A DNA stretch of 64,000 nucleotides. Source: Desulfuribacillus stibiiarsenatis (GTDB lineage: Bacteria; Bacillota; Bacilli; Desulfuribacillales; Desulfuribacillaceae). The position numbers and the translations under genes are program-made. The stretch is from contig NZ_MJAT01000012.1 in assembly GCF_001742305.1 (NCBI RefSeq), forward strand, positions 186,001 to 250,000. Reading direction: 5' to 3'. Positions within the stretch are counted from its first letter, which is position 1. Each line of letters begins with the position of its first letter. This document shows positions 22,061-23,249 of this stretch, in pieces. The notes beneath the pieces were generated by a model that made no database searches, was not told the DNA's origin, and worked only from the letters and a program-made list of their open reading frames with translations.

Positions 22061-22297
22061 ATGGGAGTTGGACAAGAGCGTTCAAGTAACTGGTTAGTAG
22101 TACCTGAATCTTATCAAGCAATGGATAAGTTCAAGTATGAAGTTGCTAGCGAATTAGGTATCCAAACACCGTCAAACGGTTACTGGGGTAACATGACATC
22201 TCGTGATTGTGGAGCTGTTGGAGGACATATGACTCGTAAGCTTGTACAAATGGGTGAGCAACAACTTATGAACTCTAAAGGCGGTTCTTCATTCTAA
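22061..22297 (+). CDS. Alpha/beta-type small acid-soluble spore protein
   Basis: These proteins coat and protect DNA in the dormant spore. The 78 residues carry the two conserved alpha/beta SASP blocks: KFKYEVASELGI near residues 26-37, where the germination protease would cut, and GYWGNMTSRDCGAVGGHMTR. The first 20 residues (VGQERSSNWLVVP) are less usual for the major SspA/B type and closer to minor forms. A perfect AAGGAGGTGATA site precedes the ATG, and a terminator follows, so it is a single-gene unit. Forespore expression is expected from the family. Confidence 0.92.
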   Translation: MGVGQERSSNWLVVPESYQAMDKFKYEVASELGIQTPSNGYWGNMTSRDCGAVGGHMTRKLVQMGEQQLMNSKGGSSF

Positions 22298-22399: not shown

Positions 22400-22544
22400 A
22401 ATAAAAAAAGCCCCTAGATATATCATCTAGGGTAAATTGACAAATGATTTCCATTTGTCTAATGGGAGAGGAGAAACCGGAGGAAGAACTTATGGGGAAA
22501 AGTCTTCTCCGCGGTTGTCCGACAGCAACCAAATTGCTACTGTC
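22400..22544 (-). ncRNA. csfG: Probable sporulation sRNA CsfG
   Basis: Read on the minus strand, this non-coding stretch folds into four hairpins in a row: 22544-22521 (GACAG...CTGTC), 22516-22475 (AACCG...CGGTT extended inward to AAGT/ACTT), 22459-22439 (GACAAATG/CATTTGTC, perfect) and a terminator at 22432-22412 followed by seven T. Between hairpins two and three lies an unpaired pyrimidine stretch TCTCCTCTCCC, and the loop of hairpin two reads TTCCCC; both resemble anti-ribosome-binding-site contacts. A sigma-G-like promoter ends 6 bases upstream. In B. subtilis, as I recall, the forespore sRNA CsfG lies next to ylbH (rsmD), which is the neighbour here. The identification rests on location, promoter and architecture, not on an alignment. 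Confidence 0.7.
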
Positions 22545-22549
22545 TTTTC

Positions 22550-22580
22550 TATTATGAACGAAATCCCTTTTTATTATACA
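22550..22580 (-). promoter_or_regulatory. Sigma-G/sigma-F type promoter for the csfG sRNA
   Basis: On the minus strand TGTATA and CATAATA are separated by 18 bases, fitting the forespore sigma-G pattern GHATR / CATWHTA. The predicted start falls at about 22543-22544, the foot of the first hairpin. Confidence 0.6.
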
Positions 22581-22682: not shown

Positions 22683-23249
22683 ATGAGGATTATTTCTGGC
22701 GAAAAGAAAGGACTACGCTTAAAGGCTGTGCCTGGAATGAATACTAGACCTACTACAGATCGAGTAAAGGAATCTGTTTTTAATATTATAGGGCCGTATT
22801 TTGCTGATTGCTATGTACTTGATTTATTTGCTGGATCGGGGGCGTTAGGGATTGAAGCAGTAAGTAGAGGGGCGGCACGGAGCGTTTTTGTCGATAATGC
22901 AACAGTAGCTATTAACACTATCCAAGAAAATTTACGGCTTGCCAATGTTATTGATAGAGCAGAGGTATTGAAATCGGATTGGAAAAGTGCATGTGATAAG
23001 CTTGCGTCTAAAGGGTACTCGTTTGATTTAGTATTTCTCGACCCTCCGTATCAACAGTTTGAAAATCAGATAGAGACGATACTACAGACATTATTAGACA
23101 AAGAACTATTGAATCGTCATGCTAAGATCATATGTGAACAAGATAGTAAATCCAATCTACCGCTGCAATTCATGAATTTGAGCGGCAAATATTATAAATA
23201 TGGTAATACTGGTATCACTGTATTTTACAAAGAGGAGAATGAGGAATGA
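22683..23249 (+). CDS. rsmD: 16S rRNA m2G966 methyltransferase RsmD
   Basis: RsmD methylates guanine 966 of 16S rRNA. The start is the [18 protein letters not shown] segment that is conserved in the family; the open frame continues upstream to 22623 but without a ribosome binding site. The S-adenosylmethionine motif is [17 protein letters not shown] and the catalytic motif is FLDPPY. At 188 residues it is full length. It overlaps coaD by 4 bases (ATGA), the common rsmD-coaD pair. Confidence 0.95.

Follow-up and report, generated by a model that had tools for sequence, protein, structure and literature searches.

A CsfG homologue beside rsmD in Desulfuribacillus stibiiarsenatis and the near-invariant core of its RNA family

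The minus strand at positions 22403-22545 of the window, by which we mean the whole 64,000-nucleotide stretch of Desulfuribacillus stibiiarsenatis DNA analysed here, almost certainly encodes a homologue of CsfG. The CsfG of the window is a further member of an already known RNA family: as described in papers that cite Marchais 2011 (PMC3574147, PMC8216469), CsfG is a B. subtilis sRNA encoded between ylbG and ylbH, and its forespore control by sigma-F/sigma-G is likewise reported by papers citing that study. The window contributes a CsfG of a family that only two genera represent in the sample. As to function, the best explanation overall, to which we give a probability of about 0.6, is that CsfG acts in trans and that its C-rich regions pair with sites in mRNAs, whose translation or stability is thereby reduced.

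Locus, transcript and coding strand

The locus comprises the following features, in order of position:

22061 to 22297, plus strand: alpha/beta-type small acid-soluble spore protein (SASP) gene, convergent neighbour (PF00269, E 3.8e-28)
22401 to 22514, plus strand: match to Rfam RF00516 'ylbH leader', complementary to csfG
22403 to 22545, minus strand: csfG, predicted transcript of about 141 nt placed from promoter and terminator
22403 to 22432, minus strand: intrinsic terminator, CCCTAGATG-ATA-TATCTAGGG followed by seven T
22439 to 22459, minus strand: hairpin 3, GACAAATG / CATTTGTC, not universal in homologues
22464 to 22487, minus strand: invariant core TCTTCCTCCGGTTTCTCCTCTCCC, a 24-nt degenerate pattern across the phylum
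22476 to 22464, minus strand: linker UUUCUCCUCUCCC, the 3' end of the invariant core
22475 to 22516, minus strand: hairpin 2, with UUCCCC in its loop (22499-22494)
22521 to 22544, minus strand: hairpin 1, GACAGTAGC / GTTGCTGTC
22550 to 22579, minus strand: sigma-F/sigma-G-type promoter, -35 GTATA (22579-22575), N18, -10 CATAATA (22556-22550)
22683 to 23249, plus strand: rsmD (B. subtilis ylbH), divergent neighbour (TIGR00095, 156.9 bits)

The gap between the SASP stop (22297) and the rsmD start (22683) measures 385 bases, and the minus-strand signals that the preliminary description had placed in it were found again, namely the promoter, a structured stretch and the terminator. That description had also named the element as a probable CsfG, and RF00516, which is Rfam's model of the same element on the opposite strand, matches here at 65.8 bits (gathering cut-off 50; E 1.7e-11), the only match in this genome. 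The identification draws on the agreement of this match with the promoter, the terminator, the G-U pairs, the covariation, the synteny with rsmD and the restriction to genomes with sigG. In the window csfG is divergent from the adjoining rsmD, and the RNA strand is opposite to rsmD and has its own terminator. The likeness to B. subtilis CsfG takes in the core sequence, the position on the opposite strand beside rsmD, the sigma-F/G promoter, the C-rich single-stranded regions and the terminator; the window RNA, predicted from sequence alone, differs in having a 4-nt gap in a loop, and the far-side neighbour is a SASP gene in place of the ylbG found in B. subtilis. Anti-hemB RNA (RF02837) was rejected as an identity for the element, at 25.1 bits against a gathering cut-off of 49.5.

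Against the sigma-G consensus, GHATR-N18-CATNHTA, the window promoter scores 11/11, and against the sigma-F consensus (N15) it scores 10/12; on this match it can be classed as of sigma-F/sigma-G type. Exact matches to the sigma-G consensus number three in the 64 kb, where 1.21 would be expected by chance, and about 0.007 would be expected in the gap. The position of the promoter is kept over 101 homologous loci of the class, with a score of at least 9/11 in 97 of them compared with 24% of shuffles, and the earlier claim of a minus-strand promoter of sigma-G type is thereby upheld. Transcription would start some 7 nt past the -10 box, at about 22545-22543, and the 3' end probably falls inside the U-tract at 22409-22403; for comparison, the B. 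subtilis CsfG peak measures 136 nt (PMC3574147). What had been called a classic terminator is the sole terminator-like site in the gap, on the minus strand at 22432-22412 with seven T's. Across the class loci such a site lies 3' of the core on the csfG strand in 81/101, compared with 7/101 after shuffling and 5/101 on the other strand.

The folding energy of the minus strand is -51.8 kcal/mol, where shuffles give -30.3 +/- 3.9 (z -5.6, 0/200), and the plus-strand fold is weaker (z -3.3). Four hairpins and a terminator had been described; the fold has three hairpins and a terminator hairpin, such that the count of four holds only if the terminator is taken as the fourth. In 61 homologues the consensus helix of hairpin 1 has changes on both sides in 7/7 pairs, and the covariation score of the whole structure is 0.231, compared with 0.148 for shuffles, a value that 0/500 shuffles reach and that all slid versions also fall below. 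Some homologues (several, judged by eye) have a single hairpin 3' of the linker. Of the two stretches described as unpaired, TTCCCC (22499-22494) is placed in a loop by the fold, and the final part of TCTCCTCTCCC is free, but in the window fold a GGA upstream pairs with its UCC (22472-22470).

Two variants of the hairpin-2 loop were seen. At window positions 22500-22490 the window (L001) and its sister genus (L023) have in common a gap of 4 nt (ACGT) relative to nearly all other class members. In locus L026 (genome G035) the loop UUUCCCC is replaced by AUCGAUU with the remaining core intact, which provides a natural variant for probing the role of the loop.

Rfam RF00516 covers the same locus and sequence family, and its entry describes a plus-strand, cis-regulatory leader of rsmD, complementary to csfG. 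The 65.8-bit plus-strand match itself and the position of the element, mostly upstream of rsmD, would suit such a leader. However, of the 101 class loci 90 have csfG divergent from rsmD and 10 have it on the same strand, where the leader would be reversed, and in seven it lies at least 1 kb from rsmD. In addition, 12 Paenibacillus genomes in which a first search had placed no csfG near rsmD all carry csfG, mostly farther away (in one of them, L088, this search had overlooked a slightly divergent copy close to rsmD). The strand and proximity to rsmD that a cis-acting ylbH leader would keep are thus not kept across the homologous loci, and the movement or inversion of csfG relative to rsmD in some genomes fits a free RNA. 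The consensus helices of the 61 diverse homologues, when read as the minus strand, hold 53 G-U and 11 A-C cells, which favours that strand, as does the bias of the terminator-like sites described above, and in B. subtilis a northern blot detected the CsfG strand alone and not the 'ylbH leader' strand (Dambach 2013, PMC3574147). A small plus-strand ORF, GGAGG..ATGGGGAAACGTAAG (MGKRKSSP...), was also considered, as the complement of the core resembles a Shine-Dalgarno (SD) sequence plus ATG and MGKRKSSP can be read in 77 loci. In the window's family the 4-nt gap interrupts its frame, and 1-nt gaps do so in L047/L048 and L095; the frame-broken loci read MGKSLLRG or MGNVSLLR. Loci outside the class have a different frame (MGEG...), and the sequence beyond the core has no conservation. 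A plus-strand protein gene was rejected on account of these frameshifting gaps in several lineages, the window's included. Because of the G-U bias, the terminator direction, the frameshifts in the plus-strand frame and the relocation and inversion relative to rsmD, we take the RNA to be the minus strand. The RF00516 orientation and the cis-regulatory leader function are not supported, a plus-strand leader being highly improbable and the small ORF even more so.

Distribution and the link to sporulation

The class sample consisted of 300 genomes, with sigG called by TIGR02850 and RF00516 counted over the Rfam cut-off. Matches were present in 154/207 sigG-positive and 0/93 sigG-negative genomes, counts that are not independent by descent, and the earlier statement that CsfG is conserved in spore formers agrees with this restriction to genomes carrying sigG. 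The genome of the window has sigG (E 1.7e-147). One sigG-negative genome (G216) has an RF00516 match at E 2e-4, which is far under the cut-off and in the range of the chance matches inspected; weak matches of 28-34 bits in G012, G102, G160, G180, G317 and G319 were rejected as chance hairpins, terminators or tRNA. Genomes of f4/g37 (G045, G247, G265), f61 (G486, G629), f99 (G677) and f130 (G700) are without sigG and without the core, and their relatives have both. The named lactic-acid-type controls (Facklamia, Aerococcaceae) have no RF00516 match.

Among the sigG-positive class genomes, 53/207 gave no RF00516 match over the cut-off. There is no RF00516 match in Psychrobacillus (L099, L100) or Jeotgalibacillus (L067, L069), nor in class family f3, where many genomes have a divergent sigG, and on these searches csfG seems to be absent from these groups.

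A phylum-wide scan outside the class gave many RF00516 matches under the cut-off. In 20 that were inspected the core is almost unchanged in 20/20, and rsmD lies on the strand opposite csfG in 19/20, in 17 of these within about 310 bases. We searched 398 genomes of the phylum with a 24-nt degenerate core pattern, allowing up to two mismatches, and found it in 167/398 (reversed control, 0); by sigG status, the counts are 167/340 sigG-positive and 0/58 sigG-negative genomes. Of some 380 genomes of other classes, about 150 carry the core, mostly under the Rfam cut-off and usually divergent from rsmD; by inference these core-bearing genomes are Clostridia and relatives. A promoter score of at least 10/11 was found in 27/36 distinct outside-class loci, compared with 5.6% of shuffles, and at some loci the best-scoring promoter site is 70-90 nt upstream of the core. 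Outside the class there is no conservation of the 5' half of csfG, and some loci have a short GAAG/CUUC stem. CsfG has been called conserved in Bacillaceae (PMC3574147) and ten ylbH motifs have been listed (PMC3766115), and we make no claim to novelty for the wider distribution. The core is nevertheless conserved far past the reach of the Rfam cut-off, and its wide occurrence, together with the sigma-G-type promoter and the joint loss with sigG, points to a basic forespore task, which is now open to genetic attack in many lineages.

Two further observations concern outside-class loci and copy number. In family f76 (L171, L192-L200) the CCCCAU segment can itself pair, as judged by eye: a stem formed by the 5' part CATGGGGAGGG and CCCTCCCCCATG could bury the C-rich segment, and its pairs seem to show compensatory changes. 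Three genomes have two copies of the CsfG core, namely G366 (C4, C18), G421 (C122, C147) and G638 (C242, C42).

The core and its possible partners

The part that is constant across the phylum is a primary sequence of 25 bases, CUCUUCCUCCRGUUUCUCCUCUCCC, that is almost unchanged. The preliminary description had called for an alignment of its pyrimidine-rich stretch with other spore formers, and in that alignment the window core is identical to the class consensus. Both within the class and beyond it, linker positions are 97-100% identical and mostly unpaired.

In the proposed mechanism CsfG would act in trans in the forespore, where the UUCCCC loop and the core and linker segment CUUCCUCCGGUUUCUCCUCUCCC would pair with SD or other purine-rich mRNA sites and so would lower translation or stability of a defined set of mRNAs during the onset of forespore dormancy. 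We rate the pairing mechanism as such slightly better than even. We infer that CsfG is expressed here, that it pairs with and represses mRNAs and that specific targets exist; the block on translation of several mRNAs in the preliminary description has the same standing. Over the 52 gene starts of the window, which were picked by an anti-SD criterion, the core (linker) pairs with SD regions at -9.2 kcal/mol, where coding controls give -4.0 and the true anti-SD gives -9.9, but against shuffled pyrimidine linkers its SD affinity is no better (z -0.5). The complementarity to ribosome binding sites described earlier is therefore real, but at the level of composition, as shuffles equal it. Because shuffled pyrimidines do as well, SD pairing leaves the near-invariant order of the core unexplained and a more specific partner is implied. 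This suggests that selection keeps the order of the core and not merely its C-richness, and argues for seeking a specific partner of CsfG. The core is best accounted for by a partner specific to it or by a defined group of targets that pair through short seeds.

Such a partner could be a protein, with the core mainly a binding site for Hfq or another RNA-binding protein and CsfG a sponge or carrier RNA of the forespore. A near-invariant, mostly unpaired pyrimidine tract that generic SD pairing does not explain would suit this, and in B. subtilis CsfG co-purifies with Hfq and its level is modestly lower in an hfq mutant (PMC3574147). On the other hand, no dedicated protein is known. Hfq has a broad sequence preference, which would not demand 24 near-invariant bases, and we regard a protein site as unlikely, if the least unlikely of the alternatives to mRNA pairing. 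Another candidate is the 16S rRNA segment AAACCGGAGGAAG, which is near-universal and precedes GTGGGGATGACGTC; by pairing with it the core would act on forespore ribosomes or their assembly. In most genomes checked there is a 13-nt perfect complement to the core, a length that shuffles reach in 27-33/20000; the invariance of the RNA would follow from an invariant partner; and csfG adjoins rsmD, a 16S methylase gene, across the phylum. However, the idea is post hoc, and UUUCUCCUCUCCC, where invariance is highest, falls for the most part outside the 13-nt match. Furthermore, f4 (GTCC) and f76 (CAG) alter CsfG without a matching 16S change, the reverse is seen in G355, G583 and G621, and f111 has changes on both sides that do not match; no compensatory CsfG-16S changes were found in the genomes checked, a set that excludes the window's own and most of family f76. 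We therefore consider 16S pairing very unlikely. Scarcely more credit is due to the broader proposal that the ancient, phylum-wide core pairs with one near-invariant partner, possibly AAACCGGAGGAAG, and helps to silence or store the ribosomes of dormant spores; if true, CsfG would serve dormant-spore ribosomes instead of regulating a few mRNAs.

Pairing with mRNAs, the reading that we favour, has parallels in RoxS/RsaE and FsrA. RoxS and FsrA pair with SD sequences through C-rich loops, and CsfG has been compared with both (PMC8216469, PMC4409812). The likeness lies in C-rich unpaired stretches and a similar layout; the comparison is one of function, and the promoters and the sequences are different. 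After more than a decade the literature holds no CsfG target (PMC8216469, PMC9147052) and no phenotype (PMC9147052). Full complements of the linker with up to one mismatch are not enriched in the window's own and sister genomes, with seven matches, two of them csfG itself, compared with five for the control. coaD, which has a 9-nt linker complement, AGAGGAGAA, at its ribosome binding site (window 23218-23246), was rejected as a target as this is not kept in the sister genus. A one-mismatch linker complement, TGGAGAGGAGAAA, lies at G000:C34:60076-60088 (L129), immediately upstream of a KefB/KhtU-type antiporter-like gene.
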